The notes: a model not told the origin generated them from the letters alone. A stretch of DNA of 35,875 nucleotides from Magnetococcales bacterium (GCA_015660855.1 JACSDG010000025.1:1-35875); one strand, 5' to 3'; positions 20,738 to 28,687 are shown, counted from the stretch's first letter. Translations and numbers: made by a program.

Positions 20738-22483
20738 ATGCTCAAATTTATCCAAAGGCTGGGAATCAATGAACACATCGTCCTGTCCGTCATAGCAATA
20801 GCCATCGGCCTGATGGTTGGCTACGGGGCCATCCTGTTTCGCCTGTTGATCGAAGGCTTCCAGTTTCTTTTCATGGCCAGCGGTAACGAGAATGTCGCGG
20901 AAATCGTTCGCGGCCTTTCCTGGTGGCACGTCCTGTTCATGCCGGTGCTTGGTGGTGCCATCATCGGACCTTTGGTCCATTTTTTCTTCCCGAGTTCCCG
21001 AGGGGACGGCGTGCCGGAAGTCATGTCGGCGGTAGCGTTGCGTGGGGGAAAATTGGGATTGCGCGAAGGATTGGGAAAAATGCTTTCCTGCTCGCTATCC
21101 ATTGGCTGCGGTGGCTCGGTCGGCAGGGAAGGACCCGTCGTCCACCTGGGAGCCACCCTGGCTTCCTGGTTTGGTTCGCTCCTGCCCATGTCCAACAATC
21201 ACATGCGCACCATCGTCGGTTGTGGTGCCGCCGCAGGCATCGCCGCCTCCTTCAATGCCCCCATCGCCGGCGTCATGTTCGCCCTGGAAGTGATCTTGGC
21301 TGACTATGGACTGGCCACCTTTTCGCCCATCGTCCTTTCATCGGTCGTCGCCACCGTCATCGCCCGTATGCACCTGGGCGATTTTCCCGCCTTCATCGTC
21401 CCCAACTACACCCTGGTGTCTGCCTGGGAAATTCCCGCCTATGTGGGATTGGGACTGGTGTGCGGACTCACAGGGATTTTATTCATGGTGACCCTCTTCA
21501 AGATGGAAGATCTGTTCGCCACCATTAAAATTCCCATTTATCTCAAACCCATCATCGGTGGTTTTTGCCTGGGTGTCATCGCCCTGGTTTTTCCTGAAAC
21601 CATGGGGGTCGGTTATGACATCATGAATCATGCCTTGCTGGAAGAAATGGCCGTCCTCGCCATGATCGCCCTGATTTTTGCCAAAATCATCGCCACTTCC
21701 ATTGCCCTGGGGAGTGGCTTTTCCGGCGGAGTCTTCACCCCCAGTCTTTTCCTTGGTGCCATGGTGGGAGGAAGTTTCGGCACCATCGCGCATTCCATTT
21801 TTCCGGCAATCTCCGCCGGTCCCGGAGCCTATACCCTGGTCGGCATGGGAGCCATGGCCGCTGCGGTTTTGGGTGCCCCTATCGCTTCCATCCTGATCCT
21901 GTTCGAGCTGACCGGCGATTATCGCATCATGCTGGCCCTTATGGTCGCCTCCATCGTCGCCACCCTCCTGATCAACCAGATCTATCGCGAGTCGGTTTAT
22001 ACCAAAACCCTCAAACGCAAAAAAATTGATCTGCGCCAAGGCCGTGAAGCCAATCTGCTGCGCAATATTCCCGTCAGTTCCATTATTCGAAAAGATTTTG
22101 AAACCATTCAAGAATCGATGAACATTCGTCAATTCAAAGACAAAATCAGAGAATCACAGCAGGATTGTTTTATCGTCGTTGCGGCGGATGGCCATCTCAA
22201 GGGAATCATTTCTTTCCAGGATATTCGCAAGGTCGCCTTTGCAGAAGGGGAGTTTGACGATTTGGCCCTGATCAAGGACTTCTACATTCCGAACCCGGCG
22301 ACCATCCATCCCAATGAAAATTTATACGATGCCCTTTTGCGTTTTGAGGCCAACAATGTAGAACAACTCCCCGTCGTCGCCCCGGACGATCCTACCCTTG
22401 TCATTGGTTTAATTTCCATCCACAACATGATCCGCGCCTACAATATGGCCCTGCTCAGTCAAAACAACCCCTATCGTGATTGA
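20738..22483 (+). CDS. ClC-family chloride channel/antiporter with C-terminal CBS domains
   Basis: The 581-residue membrane protein has ClC signatures: GDGVPEVM at the helix D site, GREGPVVHLGA with the gating Glu, and GSGFSGGVFTPSLFLGA at helix N. The membrane part spans about residues 15-420. The C-terminal 150 residues form two CBS-like regions (VSSIIRKDFETIQ; NPATIHPNENLYDALLRF), which in relatives bind nucleotides and regulate transport. The helix D site is RGDGVP, not the GSGIP of E. coli ClcA, as in many CBS-bearing bacterial members. Transport direction and ion preference cannot be decided here. GAAGAG precedes the ATG. Confidence 0.93.
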   Translation: MLKFIQRLGINEHIVLSVIAIAIGLMVGYGAILFRLLIEGFQFLFMASGNENVAEIVRGLSWWHVLFMPVLGGAIIGPLVHFFFPSSRGDGVPEVMSAVALRGGKLGLREGLGKMLSCSLSIGCGGSVGREGPVVHLGATLASWFGSLLPMSNNHMRTIVGCGAAAGIAASFNAPIAGVMFALEVILADYGLATFSPIVLSSVVATVIARMHLGDFPAFIVPNYTLVSAWEIPAYVGLGLVCGLTGILFMVTLFKMEDLFATIKIPIYLKPIIGGFCLGVIALVFPETMGVGYDIMNHALLEEMAVLAMIALIFAKIIATSIALGSGFSGGVFTPSLFLGAMVGGSFGTIAHSIFPAISAGPGAYTLVGMGAMAAAVLGAPIASILILFELTGDYRIMLALMVASIVATLLINQIYRESVYTKTLKRKKIDLRQGREANLLRNIPVSSIIRKDFETIQESMNIRQFKDKIRESQQDCFIVVAADGHLKGIISFQDIRKVAFAEGEFDDLALIKDFYIPNPATIHPNENLYDALLRFEANNVEQLPVVAPDDPTLVIGLISIHNMIRAYNMALLSQNNPYRD

Positions 22484-22490
22484 TACCCTC

Positions 22491-24485
22491 ATGTCCCATG
22501 ATTTTTTGCTCAAAGACCTCAACCCCCCCCAGACCGAAGCCGTCACCGCCGCCGCCGGACCCATCATGATTCTGGCCGGAGCCGGTTCCGGCAAAACCAG
22601 GGTGCTGACCCGGCGTCTGGCCTGGCTCCTGGCCAAACAGGGTGTCCTGCCCAATGAAATCCTGGCCGTCACCTTTACCAACAAGGCGGCCAAAGAGATG
22701 CGTGAACGGATAACTCAACTGATCAACATGGACCCAGAGACTTCCCGGCGATTGTGGATTGGCACCTTTCACGGCATGAGTGCCCGCATATTACGCCAAA
22801 ATGCGGAAAAAATTGGCTTCAATCCCGATTTTATGATCCTCGACGCCTCCGATCAAGAACGGACCATACGCAAAATTGCCGAAGAAATCGAATTCAATAA
22901 CGTTTACTGGACTCCCAAGCGGTTGGCCACCACCTTTTCCCGTTGGAAAGATGGCGGGCTTGGACCCGAAGACATTACCGAAGAACATGTTCGCTTTTCC
23001 CAGGATGTGACACGTATTTCTCAAATTTTTTCCATGTATCAGGGGGTGCTCCTGAAGACCAACTGCATGGATTTTGGCGACCTTCTGGTTCATTGCCTGC
23101 GACTTTGGCGGCAATATCCCGAAATCCTTGATCGCTATCGCATGAGTTTTCGTCATATTTTGGTGGATGAATATCAGGACACCAACAAGGTGCAGTATGA
23201 TTGGATGCGTGCCCTGGCCAGTCATCATGGTAATTTATGCGTCGTTGGCGATGATGATCAATCCATCTACAGTTGGCGTGGTGCCCGTTTGGAAAATATC
23301 CTTAATTTTGAAAAAGATTTTCCAAATACCAAAATTGTTCGCCTGGAACAAAATTATCGCTCTACCGGCAATATTCTCAAAGCGGCCAGCCAACTGATCG
23401 ACCACAATCATGGCCGCATGGGAAAGACCCTTTGGACCGACGGTCCCTCCGGTCCAAAGCTGATCCGTTATGTCGCCGAGGATGGCGAAGACGAAGCCCG
23501 GTTTGTGGCGACGGAAATTGTACGCAACCTTGGCTCCGGAGGATCTTTCAGTCAGGCGGCGATTTTGGTCCGGGCGTCGCATCAAACGCGTATCCTCGAA
23601 GAAGCTTTGAACCGGCAGCGGATCCCTTATCAGGTGGTGGGGGGACTTCGGTTTGTGGAACGCGCGGAAATCAAGGATGCTGTCGCCTATTTGCGCCTGG
23701 CGCATTCCCAGTTGGATAATTTGGCCTTTGAGCGCATCATCAACACCCCCAAGCGCAAACTGGGAGACAAGGCCCTGGCCACCATTGAATCTTGCGCCCG
23801 GGAGACCGGGGATAGTTTGTTTGTCGGGGCCAAAACGGTCATTGCCGAAAACAGGTTGGGCAAAGCCACCCTGGCACCGTTGGCAGATTTTGTGGTACTG
23901 ATTGAAAAGGCAGCTGCGGAACTTGACGCCGGATTATTGCCTGGTGAAGTCATGGAGCACCTCCTGGATGAGAGCGGTTATCGAGTTTTTTTAAACGCGG
24001 GTGACCGTGGTGATGAAAAAAATGAAAACCTTACGGAATTGATCGCTTTTCTCCGGCAGGAGACCGATGTTACCGGATTTTTGGAACGGGTCTCGCTGGA
24101 TGCCGATTTGACGCACGAATCCAAAGTGTTGACCGATCATGTCGTCCTTTCCACCCTGCACGCCGCCAAGGGATTGGAATTTCCCCTGGTATTTCTGGTC
24201 GGCATGGAAGAGGGATTGTTGCCCCACAAACTGGCCCTGAAAGATGATCCCACGGGGTTGGAAGAAGAACGGCGATTGACTTATGTTGGGATGACCCGAG
24301 CAAAGGAAAGGCTTTATCTATCCCATGCCAAGCGTCGTTTCACCTATGATCGTCATGAATCGACACAGCCCTCCCGCTTTCTCGGGGAGCTTCCTGAAGA
24401 TGTCATGGAACTTAAAGGGTTACGGGTTGGAACGCATGCTGGAATCGGGGGATTTCATTCGCGGGGACGTTTTCCCCGACGTTAG
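22491..24485 (+). CDS. UvrD/Rep/PcrA-type superfamily 1 DNA helicase
   Basis: The 664-residue ATP-dependent 3'-5' helicase has all expected SF1A motifs: the Q-motif region LNPPQTEAV, Walker A AGAGSGKT (about 29-36), the VDEYQDTN Walker B, DDDQSIYSWRGA, EQNYRSTGNI, STLHAAKGLEFPLVF, and the late EERRLTYVGMTRAKERLYL. Its length is closer to Rep than to the roughly 720 or more of UvrD and PcrA. It should act in DNA repair or fork restart. The ATG at 22491 starts after the clcA stop; a GTG at 22476 overlapping clcA is also possible. Confidence 0.94.
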   Translation: MSHDFLLKDLNPPQTEAVTAAAGPIMILAGAGSGKTRVLTRRLAWLLAKQGVLPNEILAVTFTNKAAKEMRERITQLINMDPETSRRLWIGTFHGMSARILRQNAEKIGFNPDFMILDASDQERTIRKIAEEIEFNNVYWTPKRLATTFSRWKDGGLGPEDITEEHVRFSQDVTRISQIFSMYQGVLLKTNCMDFGDLLVHCLRLWRQYPEILDRYRMSFRHILVDEYQDTNKVQYDWMRALASHHGNLCVVGDDDQSIYSWRGARLENILNFEKDFPNTKIVRLEQNYRSTGNILKAASQLIDHNHGRMGKTLWTDGPSGPKLIRYVAEDGEDEARFVATEIVRNLGSGGSFSQAAILVRASHQTRILEEALNRQRIPYQVVGGLRFVERAEIKDAVAYLRLAHSQLDNLAFERIINTPKRKLGDKALATIESCARETGDSLFVGAKTVIAENRLGKATLAPLADFVVLIEKAAAELDAGLLPGEVMEHLLDESGYRVFLNAGDRGDEKNENLTELIAFLRQETDVTGFLERVSLDADLTHESKVLTDHVVLSTLHAAKGLEFPLVFLVGMEEGLLPHKLALKDDPTGLEEERRLTYVGMTRAKERLYLSHAKRRFTYDRHESTQPSRFLGELPEDVMELKGLRVGTHAGIGGFHSRGRFPRR

Positions 24486-24615: not shown

Positions 24616-25059
24616 ATGATCCATGTGTCAAACTGCCGTAATTATAAGCTGGACCAGTCATGGAAAACGCATAGGAAGGCGGTCAAGTTGCAGGGACTGT
24701 CTCCAGCGTCCGCCAACCTCCTTCTTTTCTACGCCGTGGAATGTGGGCTAAAGTCTCTTCTTCTCAAAAAACACCTTTGGACCACCTGTCCGACAGATCG
24801 CGGCAACCTGCTCCGCAGCCATGACCTCGCGAAGATTTTCATGGGAACGGAACCTTCCAAAGCAGAGGTTGAAAAAGCAGCTCCTCCTTCTCCCCTGCAC
24901 CTTAAATGGGGATCGGAAAAAGTACCGCATATAAAAATTGGAGATGTCCATTCGGTGTGGCGATACGGTTTACCCATCGACCGGGATGACGAGAAAAAGG
25001 TCATCGCTTGGCTGCAGAAGGTCAATCAATACATTGCATTAAAAAGGATACAGCCATGA
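24616..25059 (+). CDS. HEPN-like small protein, partner of the dual-ATPase
   Basis: The 147-residue product looks helical. The stretch SPASANLLLFYAVECGLKSLLLKK (residues 30-53) and the later LRSHDLAKIF resemble HEPN proteins, whose helices carry a conserved A/E-C-G-L-K segment and an H-D-L motif. R-x6-H is present (RGNLLRSH), slightly longer or shifted compared with the typical R-x4-H of HEPN RNases, so nuclease activity is uncertain. Its stop overlaps the ATG of the ATPase gene (ATGA), so the two are almost surely made together. The start ATG lacks a clear ribosome binding site. The family call is moderate and comes from motif reading only. Confidence 0.5.
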   Translation: MIHVSNCRNYKLDQSWKTHRKAVKLQGLSPASANLLLFYAVECGLKSLLLKKHLWTTCPTDRGNLLRSHDLAKIFMGTEPSKAEVEKAAPPSPLHLKWGSEKVPHIKIGDVHSVWRYGLPIDRDDEKKVIAWLQKVNQYIALKRIQP

Positions 25060-27878
25060 GCACCGCCGAACTGCTTTTGAACTGGGTAGACGTGGCCCGA
25101 AGGCTCTGGATGGTATCTCATGGCACCGATGCCGAGAGCGATCGCCTCTCTCCCCCGAAAGGGGTTGTCTTTGCCCAAACCTTTTGGGACCGCCTGCTGG
25201 TGGGTGTCGCACCCAATACGGAATTGAAAGATGTCTGGGGCTGGCTGTCCCGACTCTTCGGACCGCGATGGATCCACCATGCCGACGATGGCAACGCTAT
25301 TCTCCTGGAGGCTCAGGGGGAAAGCCTGAACCGTCTCCCCGTGGAGGTTGAGGAACTTGATGCCGATGAAGTCGGAGAGTGGCGGAAAGTTCCTTTTCAT
25401 CCCCGCTTCACGCCATTAAGAACCGCTCGTTTCTCGCGCGAGCAAGAACCACCCCCTGCGGATTTGCTGCCGGACCATCCGCCGATTCTGGCTTTCCATT
25501 CCTTCAAAGGGGGGGTGGGTCGCACCCTGTGCGCCTTGGCCACCACCCTGGCCTATACCGCGCATCACAAGAAAGTTCTGCTGGTGGATGCCGATTTCGA
25601 GGCTCCCGGCATCAGTTTTCTTTTCGAGAAGAGAATGCCCGACCCCGATTTCGCCATGGCCGACCTTCTGACCATGATCCACGCCGACCCGGATCCCAAA
25701 GGCGACAACGCCCTGGCCAGTGCCAAAAAAGGAATTGCCGGACAGCGGTTGGGGGACGTTTACATCCTCCCCTGTTTCAGACACCTGCAAGACAGCGTCT
25801 CTCTTGAAATCCGCCCGGAGCATCTGGTGGCCAGCACAGTCCATCCCCCCTTCTTCCTGAGCGACATTCTTTCCCGTCTCGGTAAGGAACTCGGAGTGGA
25901 CGTGGTGATCGTCGATTTGCGGGCGGGACTGTCGGACTTGTCGTCCCCCATAATCCTTGATCCCAGAATCAAGCGCATTTTGGTGGCCAACGCCTCGGGA
26001 CAGTCCATTCGCGGCACCCAGTTTTTGATTCAGGAAATCGGCAAAGTATTAAAAAACAATCAATGGCCTGTCGGCAATCTCCCTGCCCTGATCCTCAATC
26101 AACTGCCAGGCACCATGATGCCAAAGAAAGGCGAATCCGGGGGAGATGAACGATTCAACGCCATTCTGGAAAGCATCAACAAGACCCTGGAGCAGGCATT
26201 TCCGCAACAGTCCGAATTGACAAAGGATGACGGCACCACGACCACAACCGAACAACCGCTGATTCTGACCAGTGCTGAGGAAGGCATCGCCAAGGCTTAC
26301 CTGTCGTACAACGAACCCTTGGCCGCGCTTTCTGATGAATGGGAAGACGCCATGGAGACCATTCGTGACTCTCTTATTCCTAATAAGCTTTGGGAATCCC
26401 TTCAGCTTTGGTTGCCCATAAAATCGGAACCTGTTTCGTCGGTAGCCACCAGCACCGACGAAACATTGGATGAAAGACGGCAGCGTCTTTGTGCTTTTGC
26501 CGATAAACTGGTAACAGCCGAAGGGACATCCGAAGGGGCCACCAAGGATATGGACTTTCTCCCGATTCTTCCCCTCACAAATTTGGCCAATGATCACACC
26601 TCAAAGCTTCCCATTGTCGTTTCCATTGGTGCCAAGGGAGCAGGCAAGACTTATTCCTATCTTAACATTGCCCGAAGTGGACGCTGGAATGCGTTTGTCA
26701 AGAAAATCAGCGACGATCGTTGCGAAATTTCCGCGTTCATTCTTCCGGTTCTTTGGAGTAAGAACGCCGACCAGCAGGAGATGCAGTCCACTCAAGAATC
26801 GTGCCGAAAACACGCAAACTTTCAGAAACACCTGAAACTGGAACTGTATCGAGAATTGTCCGGGTTTACCAGCGATGACCTTTATGAATGGAGAGATTTC
26901 TGGGCCAACGCCATTGCCAAGTCTCTTATTGATCCCGAGGATTCTTGCCAACCCTATGAATCTCTCATCAAGCACTTGCAGGGTGGCACTCGGCAAATCA
27001 TAGCCGTTTTCGATGGCCTCGAAGAAGCTTTTCCACAGTTTGCAAAGGATTCCAGGCAGCAAACGGCTCTGCGCGCATTGCTCCAGGAACTGCCAAACTG
27101 GCTGCGCACCCTGCCCGGCATGCCCCTTGGCCTGATCATCTTCGTCAGACAAGACATGGTATTGCACGCCATTCCACAAAATCGAACGCAATTTACCGAT
27201 AAGTTCAAAAGCTACGCCCTGCGTTGGACATGGCAAGAGGCCCTGGAGTTGGCTGCCTGGGTGAGTGACAAATCGACAGCAACCAAAAACCTTTGGGATC
27301 AGAAATTTGCCAAACTGTCGGAGGCGGACCGCTCAACATGTTTGAAACCTCTCTGGGGATACAAACTTGGTGGAGATGAAAGCAATGAGGCCGTTTCCAA
27401 TAATTGGGTTCTTTCCGTCCTGTCCGATCTGCGGGGACGGATTCAGGGACGGGATGTTGTTCGTTTCCTGAGCTTGGCTGCCAAGGAGTCTGTGCGCAAT
27501 ACCAAGTCAACTGATCGCCTCCTTGCTCCGGCAGCTATGCGAGCAGCCATTCAACAGTGCAGCCAGAAAAAGGTCGAAGAAATCGGCGAAGAGAATGCTC
27601 CTCTCAAGGAGGTGTTCGACAAGATAAAGGACCGCACTTCCGCGAAATCTCAAGGTGCATTGCTTTCCCCATGTACGTATGATGATCTCGGATCTCTTGG
27701 TCTAAAAAGAGAACAGGTTGAACTTCTTGAGGAGAATGGTATCATCTTTTTGGATCCAGGCGAGCAGAAGTACCACTTCCCGGAAATCTTTCGCCATGGG
27801 CTTAATGTCGAGCGTGCCGCCGGGGCACGACCAAAAGTCGTTTCCCTTCTTCGTCAGGCACGTAACCAGGGGCGATGA
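25056..27878 (+). CDS. Large dual P-loop ATPase: MinD/ParA-like KGGVGRT domain plus second STAND/AAA-like domain
   Basis: The 940-residue protein has an N-terminal region of about 140 residues of unknown fold. A MinD/ParA-like domain follows, with SFKGGVGRT (K151; the P-loop Lys is replaced by Arg), VLLVDADFEAPG and VDVVIVDLRAGLSDLSS. A linker leads to a second P-loop, GAKGAGKT (residues 525-532), with a Walker B-like AVFDGLEEAF (D653) and a sensor-like LGLIIFVRQD. The last 200 residues look helical and end in a winged-helix-like YHFPEIFRHGL. The architecture resembles large signalling or defence ATPases, but I do not recognise a named system. The ATG at 25056 has AGGA about 8 bases upstream. 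It overlaps the HEPN-like gene and nif3 by ATGA at each end. Confidence 0.82.
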   Translation: MSTAELLLNWVDVARRLWMVSHGTDAESDRLSPPKGVVFAQTFWDRLLVGVAPNTELKDVWGWLSRLFGPRWIHHADDGNAILLEAQGESLNRLPVEVEELDADEVGEWRKVPFHPRFTPLRTARFSREQEPPPADLLPDHPPILAFHSFKGGVGRTLCALATTLAYTAHHKKVLLVDADFEAPGISFLFEKRMPDPDFAMADLLTMIHADPDPKGDNALASAKKGIAGQRLGDVYILPCFRHLQDSVSLEIRPEHLVASTVHPPFFLSDILSRLGKELGVDVVIVDLRAGLSDLSSPIILDPRIKRILVANASGQSIRGTQFLIQEIGKVLKNNQWPVGNLPALILNQLPGTMMPKKGESGGDERFNAILESINKTLEQAFPQQSELTKDDGTTTTTEQPLILTSAEEGIAKAYLSYNEPLAALSDEWEDAMETIRDSLIPNKLWESLQLWLPIKSEPVSSVATSTDETLDERRQRLCAFADKLVTAEGTSEGATKDMDFLPILPLTNLANDHTSKLPIVVSIGAKGAGKTYSYLNIARSGRWNAFVKKISDDRCEISAFILPVLWSKNADQQEMQSTQESCRKHANFQKHLKLELYRELSGFTSDDLYEWRDFWANAIAKSLIDPEDSCQPYESLIKHLQGGTRQIIAVFDGLEEAFPQFAKDSRQQTALRALLQELPNWLRTLPGMPLGLIIFVRQDMVLHAIPQNRTQFTDKFKSYALRWTWQEALELAAWVSDKSTATKNLWDQKFAKLSEADRSTCLKPLWGYKLGGDESNEAVSNNWVLSVLSDLRGRIQGRDVVRFLSLAAKESVRNTKSTDRLLAPAAMRAAIQQCSQKKVEEIGEENAPLKEVFDKIKDRTSAKSQGALLSPCTYDDLGSLGLKREQVELLEENGIIFLDPGEQKYHFPEIFRHGLNVERAAGARPKVVSLLRQARNQGR

Positions 27879-28687
27879 TACCGGGTCTTGACACCTATGT
27901 TAAACTTGGGTTGGGAGATTTGGTTGTGGCCAAACTGGAAAAAATTGAAAACCATTGTGCGCAGATACTTCAGGTGGACCGATTTTCCGACTGTTGCCCC
28001 AATGGAGTACAGGTACGGGGATCGAGAAAAATCCAGCGTATCGTGACGGGGGTATCGGCTTGTGTGGAATTGTTTCAAGCGGCGGTGGACCAAAAAGCCG
28101 ATTTGGTATTGGTCCATCATGGATTGTTTTGGGACAAGGATTCCCGGATCATTCAGGGTCAACTGAAAAAACGCCTCCAGATACTCACGTCTGCCAATCT
28201 GACCCTCATGGCTTTTCACCTGCCGTTGGATGCCCACCCAAAATTCGGTAACAATACCCAGCTTTTGCAACGTTTGGGCATAGGCAAGAAAAAACCATTT
28301 GGCCAGTATCATCAGCAGACCATTTCATTCATGGGCCAACTGGACGAGGCCATGTCCATTGAACGGTTTGCCAAACGGACCATGAAAACGCTCCGCGCCC
28401 ATTCCCTGGTGGTTCTCCCCTTTGGTCCCAAAAAAATACGTCGAGTGGCCGTATGCAGCGGCGGTGCTCCGGAATTGATTCGCGAAGCCAAGGAAAAGGG
28501 GGCCGATTTGTTTTTAACGGGAGAAGCCAACGAACCGTTGTATTATTTTGCCCAGGAAGAAAAAATCCATTGCATCGCCGCCGGGCACCACTGCACCGAA
28601 ACTTTGGGAATCCGCGCCCTGGGTAAACATTTGGCCCGTTCTTTTGGTATCGAACACATTTTTTATGATTGTCGCAACCCAATGTAG
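27875..28687 (+). CDS. Nif3-like dinuclear metal centre protein (YbgI/NIF3 family)
   Basis: The 270-residue protein matches the Nif3/YbgI family, hexameric proteins with a two-metal site whose biological role is still unclear. Expected ligands are visible: VLVHHGLFW near residue 87, HLPLDAH in the middle, and the C-terminal AGHHCTE with His and Glu. GVQVRGS and LFLTGEAN are also family features. The first 15 residues may be extra, since the ATG overlaps the upstream ATPase stop. nif3 is a housekeeping gene, so the tight overlap suggests cotranscription with the upstream pair, but probably not a shared function. Confidence 0.9.
   Translation: MIPGLDTYVKLGLGDLVVAKLEKIENHCAQILQVDRFSDCCPNGVQVRGSRKIQRIVTGVSACVELFQAAVDQKADLVLVHHGLFWDKDSRIIQGQLKKRLQILTSANLTLMAFHLPLDAHPKFGNNTQLLQRLGIGKKKPFGQYHQQTISFMGQLDEAMSIERFAKRTMKTLRAHSLVVLPFGPKKIRRVAVCSGGAPELIREAKEKGADLFLTGEANEPLYYFAQEEKIHCIAAGHHCTETLGIRALGKHLARSFGIEHIFYDCRNPM

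Follow-up and report, generated by a model that had tools for sequence, protein, structure and literature searches.

A diverged HEPN protein and a double P-loop ATPase form a putative, horizontally moving antiphage module related to PDC-M28

We found that a 35,875-nucleotide contig of a Magnetococcales genome (GCA_015660855.1, JACSDG010000025.1:1-35875; the window below) carries a pair of overlapping genes, A and BC, that, in the reading we somewhat favour, would form an antiphage module of two genes, horizontally mobile and of abortive-infection type, with A as its effector and BC as its switch. The pair is very probably a conflict module, and an antiphage role is likely. The narrower proposal, judged from sequence, that A is the effector and acts under the control of BC falls slightly short of an even chance. 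The analysis turns PDC-M28, until now an uncharacterised database candidate, into a defined module for which an effector site and a switch are predicted. The module spans cyanobacteria, actinobacteria and methanogenic archaea, and for bloom-forming Microcystis it comes with a candidate for a natural, phage-borne inhibitor.

Gene A (positions 24616-25059, plus strand) encodes a diverged HEPN-like protein of 147 amino acids. Gene BC, on the same strand, runs from the ATG at 25056 to 27878 and encodes a double P-loop protein of 940 amino acids; the stop codon of A and the start codon of BC overlap in an ATGA (25056-25059). Both reading frames and the overlap lie exactly where the first-pass annotation had placed them. 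The pair is flanked on the left by a uvrD-type helicase gene (22476-24485, plus strand) and on the right by nif3 (27926-28687, plus strand). An apparent second ATGA, between the stop codon of BC and an ATG for nif3 (within 27875-27928), is not real, because the nif3 ATG of the congeners aligns with the GTG at 27926. This GTG is probably the native start, and the spurious overlap would thus be a by-product of insertion. The window contains no tRNA genes or Rfam RNAs, promoter and terminator scans across it performed no better than on shuffled sequence, and a hairpin upstream of A showed no conservation.

In four congeners uvrD, the left side of the junction, adjoins nif3 without the module; the gene order there is clc, uvrD, nif3 (clc lies outside the coverage in one of the four). 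The region is rearranged in two further congeners. The pair is therefore not universally kept with nif3, and the empty junction rules out a housekeeping tie to that gene, an arrangement that would have spoken against defence. We detected no direct or inverted repeats beyond 7-8 bases flanking the module, and no tRNA or recognised mobile-element gene at the insertion. Nevertheless, the sequences of BC and of the flanking helicase point to movement. BC of the window shares 84% identity with its counterpart in a genome from another family (G022), where the flanking UvrD is 56% identical, and it is only 65-67% identical to BC of congeners, where UvrD is 76-79% identical (65% and 76%, respectively, in congener G006). 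This opposite order of identities indicates horizontal transfer.

The same observations bear on a lineage-retained cellular function without a conflict role, perhaps in DNA repair, which we regard as very improbable. It would fit the presence of uvrD, uvrB or recG beside several copies of the module, as well as the two long-lasting sites found in cyanobacteria, where one group has the module downstream of recG and a second group has it tail-to-tail with uvrB. It fits poorly with the neighbours of the module, which differ among Magnetococcales beyond the genus of the window, with the discordance between BC and genome relationships, and with the patchy occurrence of the fused form. The latter was present in 12 of the 399 Pseudomonadota genomes drawn, all from the order of the window (12 of 48 genomes of this order and none of about 350 others sampled). 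The cyanobacterial fixed-site loci are L093, L103, L104, L113, L118, L120 and L122, and L055-L058 and L075; in Nostocales the module stably adjoins recG.

A scan of the collection for relatives of BC gave 201 matches, the best 80 of which were examined. These 80 come from cyanobacteria, Streptomyces and other actinobacteria, methanogens, Acidobacteria, Bacteroidota and others. Together with one viral locus (L124) they make 81 loci, and at 77 of these a homologue of A lies directly upstream of BC (with the -4 overlap in 34 of the 77), so that the arrangement in the window is not due to chance. The distance matrices of A and BC are correlated (r=0.87), and none of 2000 permutations gave a value as high. 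A and BC are thus a co-evolving pair, nearly always found together. Among 61 genomes A was present 11 times, each time beside BC, and the only BC without A was found in G004, where the first ~21 codons of A are left and BC is intact. Loss of A before BC is the order expected if A were harmful without BC. We also noted an additional conserved small gene downstream of BC in Methanotrichaceae (L064:5600-6145, L117:8704-9105 and L070:6481-7023), directly after BC in two of the loci and 1.5 kb further on in the third, which is possibly a third component of the module there.

Searches of Pfam, NCBIfam and PHROGs with A gave no match, and a sequence search against solved structures gave no credible one. 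By profile-profile comparison, however, A is a diverged HEPN protein. The profile of 65 relatives aligned along the length of A with the HEPN proteins of PF05168 (hhalign P=2e-4, score 28.7), while the best score from 100 column shuffles was 17.7. The same profile matched that of PDC-M28A more strongly (P=2.7e-6, score 40.3; shuffled maximum 18.4). The AlphaFold model of A (pLDDT 93) gave nothing significant in Foldseek against the PDB and viral models; the top match, at E=0.34, was 1wwp, which is listed as a HEPN protein in PMC3710099. The first-pass annotation had called the small protein HEPN-like. The profile comparison upholds this, although the structural search was not significant and the canonical HEPN motif is missing, as described below.

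Mean column identity across the 65 A sequences is only 26%, and yet Y39, E42, C43, K46, H69, R116 and Y117 are invariant in all of them. E42 and K46 form an Ex3K motif in helix 2 (FYAVECGLK; 24739-24753, plus strand), H69 follows that helix (24820-24822), and R116-Y117 (in WRYG; 24961-24966) closes the penultimate helix. The Rx4-6H motif canonical for HEPNs is either missing from the 65 sequences or not conserved among them, and none is conserved after R116-Y117. HEPNs of the AbiV/AF0298 type have been described in which helix 2 carries Ex3[KR], the Rx4-6H motif keeps its Arg and loses its His, and the active site could be restored by a further conserved His located between helices 2 and 3 (PMC3710099). 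The combination of Ex3K, alternative His and Arg occurs in 65 of the 65 A sequences, with H69 as the candidate alternative catalytic His. This match makes catalysis by A through E42, K46, H69 and R116 plausible.

Alternatively, A may be a non-catalytic HEPN that binds RNA or nucleotides as a sensor or adaptor, with BC as the effector, an ATPase that might, for instance, deplete nucleotides or target nucleic acid; the pair would still be antiphage. We consider this division of labour unlikely, although some observations agree with it. Families of HEPNs without Rx4-6H exist, some of them probably non-catalytic RNA binders (PMC3710099), and BC persists in G004, where A is lost. The invariance of E42, K46, H69 and R116 in so variable a protein, however, fits an active site, and A was never found without BC in the 61 genomes.

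The two P-loop domains of BC are of different kinds. The first (residues 142-328; 25479-26039, plus strand) is a KGGVGR-type domain of the MinD/ParA/FleN fold. It matches NF047398, the KGGVGR-motif variant AAA ATPase family, at 151.6 bits against a curated cutoff of 90, and PDB FleN in Foldseek at E about 2e-6. In its deviant Walker A, KGGVGRT (residues 151-157; 25506-25526), the signature Lys is kept and the P-loop Lys is changed to Arg in 47 of 47 aligned BC sequences; K151, G152, G153, R156 and T157 are invariant across the 47. The DxDxEAPG switch motif and DxRAG are intact. From general knowledge of MinD-type ATPases, we infer ATP-dependent dimerisation with weak hydrolysis for this domain, and the replacement of the P-loop Lys by Arg points to hydrolysis that is slow or absent, which would make the domain a nucleotide-dependent dimerisation latch.

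The second P-loop region (residues 522-852; 26619-27611, plus strand) resembles the Sll1717 family (NF047389), with 65.8 bits over 331 residues, below the curated cutoff of 75, and is also covered by the profile of PDC-M28C. It contains the Walker A GAKGAGKT (residues 525-532; 26628-26651) and the Walker B-like FDGLEE (residues 652-657; 27009-27026). All three motifs singled out in the first-pass annotation, KGGVGRT, GAKGAGKT and FDGLEE, are thus present and conserved among relatives. Conservation is similar in the second P-loop domain and in the helical region at the C-terminus of BC, so no candidate for a fast-evolving sensor domain is obvious in the protein. We recognised no motif of a nuclease or another effector in BC, which is a further point against BC as the effector. 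A match to mad8 of MADS was weak and limited to 4 of the 47 BC proteins.

The only phage record matching BC was ORF5 of Microcystis phage Mic1 (206 amino acids; L176:6010-6630, corresponding to MN013189.1 8171-8791), annotated as ParA. Earlier work assigned it to a ParABS system as the ParA component and cited it in favour of lysogeny (PMC7156551, PMC11237433). A true ParA can be rejected, because the part of Microcystis viridis BC to which ORF5 aligns (residues 471-691, 61% identical) is the second P-loop domain and not the MinD-fold domain. The Walker A of ORF5 is destroyed, reading GEDVAKKT compared with GAKGAGKT in BC, and a His replaces the invariant Arg of the FxRxD motif.

The second P-loop domain was found as a stand-alone protein in Mic1 and in nine viral contigs. 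Four of these are Mic1-like (three distinct sequences) and carry the gene at the same place, with a Walker A that is likewise destroyed (GEGVAENT, GEGVAENI or GADVAEYT); most of the phage genes around it share 92-97% identity with those of Mic1, compared with about 68% for the domain gene. The other five contigs (L208-L212) form a second phage group, with a ribonucleotide reductase at 89% identity to that of Mic1 and a 251-amino-acid copy at a different phage locus (for example L210:3932-4684). This copy is less degraded, its Walker A (GAKDAGKT) still being within consensus, and it is flanked by HigA-like regulator genes, so that the locus is possibly a counter-defence gene cluster. All phage copies begin at a common N-terminal boundary, and all but two, which are a few residues shorter, also end at the same C-terminal position. 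Together the copies form one clade (100/100) that groups with Microcystis BC. The dN/dS among them is about 0.35, indicating that the gene is maintained rather than decaying.

The best reading of a domain that was captured, repeatedly disabled and yet maintained is that of a decoy or a dominant-negative inhibitor. It is quite conceivable, though we advance this tentatively, that Mic1-type phages neutralise the module with a captured BC-domain decoy that poisons the BC complex, in which case ORF5 would be an anti-defence protein. If so, the ParA annotation published for cyanophage Mic1 would be corrected, and the evidence for a lysogenic Mic1 that is based on ORF5 would fall. We take the phage-borne domain as the strongest independent hint that BC acts against phages. 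That the phage-borne proteins mimic part of BC and not A would also suit BC as the effector.

We scanned 35 neighbourhoods of the module with PADLOC, taking simple longest-ORF picks as genes. At L117 the BREX genes BrxB, BrxC, PglZ and BrxL surround the module, and BC follows a truncated gene inside the BREX operon; the assembly may be chimeric there. PglW adjoins the module at L088, the type I-C genes cas3, cas5 and cas8c adjoin it at L065, and methyltransferases recognised by PADLOC lie near it at L101 and L115. The match from the viral collection, L124, is a P2-like prophage in which the module sits between the portal gene and replication gene A, an interval known as a defence hotspot in P2 (PMC9122126). 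Most sampled neighbourhoods, as at the window, are housekeeping, and the occurrences of defence genes are raw counts. The defence role that the first-pass annotation had put forward nonetheless gains support, as the pair is not tied to nif3, has moved horizontally, has some relatives in defence loci or a prophage hotspot, and has had a domain of BC captured by phages.

These neighbourhoods also weigh on a further explanation, a chromosomal toxin-antitoxin or stress pair, with A as toxin and BC as antitoxin, kept by addiction or for general stress and not for phages. The gene order and overlap are typical of such pairs, retention of BC after loss of A in G004 agrees with it, and a HEPN and ParA/Soj dyad has been proposed as a toxin-antitoxin type (PMC3710099). 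However, at 940 amino acids and with two ATPase domains, BC is large for a protein serving only as antitoxin, and no plasmid-borne close relatives were found in PLSDB at E<1e-20. In addition, the P2 hotspot, the BREX, Pgl and CRISPR neighbours and the phage-borne domain copies point to phages. We therefore rate a toxin-antitoxin pair of this kind as quite unlikely.

For the favoured antiphage module with A as effector, a mechanism can be outlined. BC would be an ATP-dependent sensor and switch that keeps A inactive, the first domain acting as the nucleotide-dependent latch and the second ATPase domain signalling. Upon infection, BC would release or activate a dimer of A, which would cleave or bind RNA through E42, K46, H69 and R116 and so stop the infected cell. 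Microcystis phages would counter the module with their captured copy of the second ATPase domain. Several observations weigh against this picture: A lacks the Rx4-6H motif and a significant fold match, most neighbourhoods are of a housekeeping kind, the Nostocales copies keep a stable place next to recG, BC shows no clear fast-evolving sensor, and the second phage group retains a consensus Walker A.

In its working principle the proposed module resembles RloC and PrrC, in which a HEPN effector is restrained by an ATPase until infection. In these systems, however, an ABC ATPase is fused to the HEPN, and we know of no homology between that ATPase and BC. The HEPNs of the AbiV/AF0298 type (HEPN-T, PF05168) share with A the Ex3K motif, the Arg kept and His lost, and the second conserved His, but their partner is a nucleotidyltransferase instead of BC; the AbiV model was not among the Pfam matches of the 65 A sequences. 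The gene dyad of a HEPN and a ParA/Soj-like ATPase was proposed in 2013 as an RNase toxin with an ATPase antitoxin (Anantharaman et al., PMC3710099). In this dyad a small HEPN gene likewise adjoins a gene for a ParA-fold ATPase. Its HEPN, of the MAE_18760 family, however, has the Rx4-6H motif that A lacks, its model was also not among the Pfam matches of the 65 A sequences, and BC differs by the added second P-loop domain and the KGGVGR variant.

The closest known relative is PDC-M28, itself a database prediction and an uncharacterised candidate of PADLOC, which likewise combines a KGGVGR domain, a second ATPase and a small upstream HEPN-like A with the Ex3K/H/RY pattern. PDC-M28B matches BC at E=9.8e-18 in the window and in 47 of 47 relatives, and PDC-M28C at E=5.9e-13 and in 46 of 47. 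The PDC-M28A profiles match A of the window marginally (E=0.04-0.06) and 11 of the 65 relatives at E<0.01; by profile-profile comparison A is a remote relative of PDC-M28A. By the profile lengths, B and C are separate genes in PDC-M28, in contrast to the single 940-amino-acid reading frame here, and because of this fusion we file the module as a variant or sister of PDC-M28 and not as PDC-M28 itself. The genome of the window also contains a true split A-B-C operon of PDC-M28 (G000:C163; L026:8255-11462), with pilin-like genes at its bounds and matches to M28B, M28C and M28A at E=1e-173, 6e-197 and 5e-51, respectively. It further holds a third lineage (G000:C62, L177:2050-5139; also L179-L181) with a fused KGGVGR/ATPase protein of about 880-910 amino acids and its own diverged HEPN-like gene directly upstream. 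Within the literature collection searched, no paper named PDC-M28, KGGVGR or Sll1717. The module can no longer be called undescribed, as it had been at first, given the match of both halves of BC to PDC-M28 and the dyad of 2013. What is new here, relative to these systems, is the fused variant, the assignment of A to the HEPNs with an alternative pattern at the active site, the evidence that the module moves and the BC domain carried by phages.
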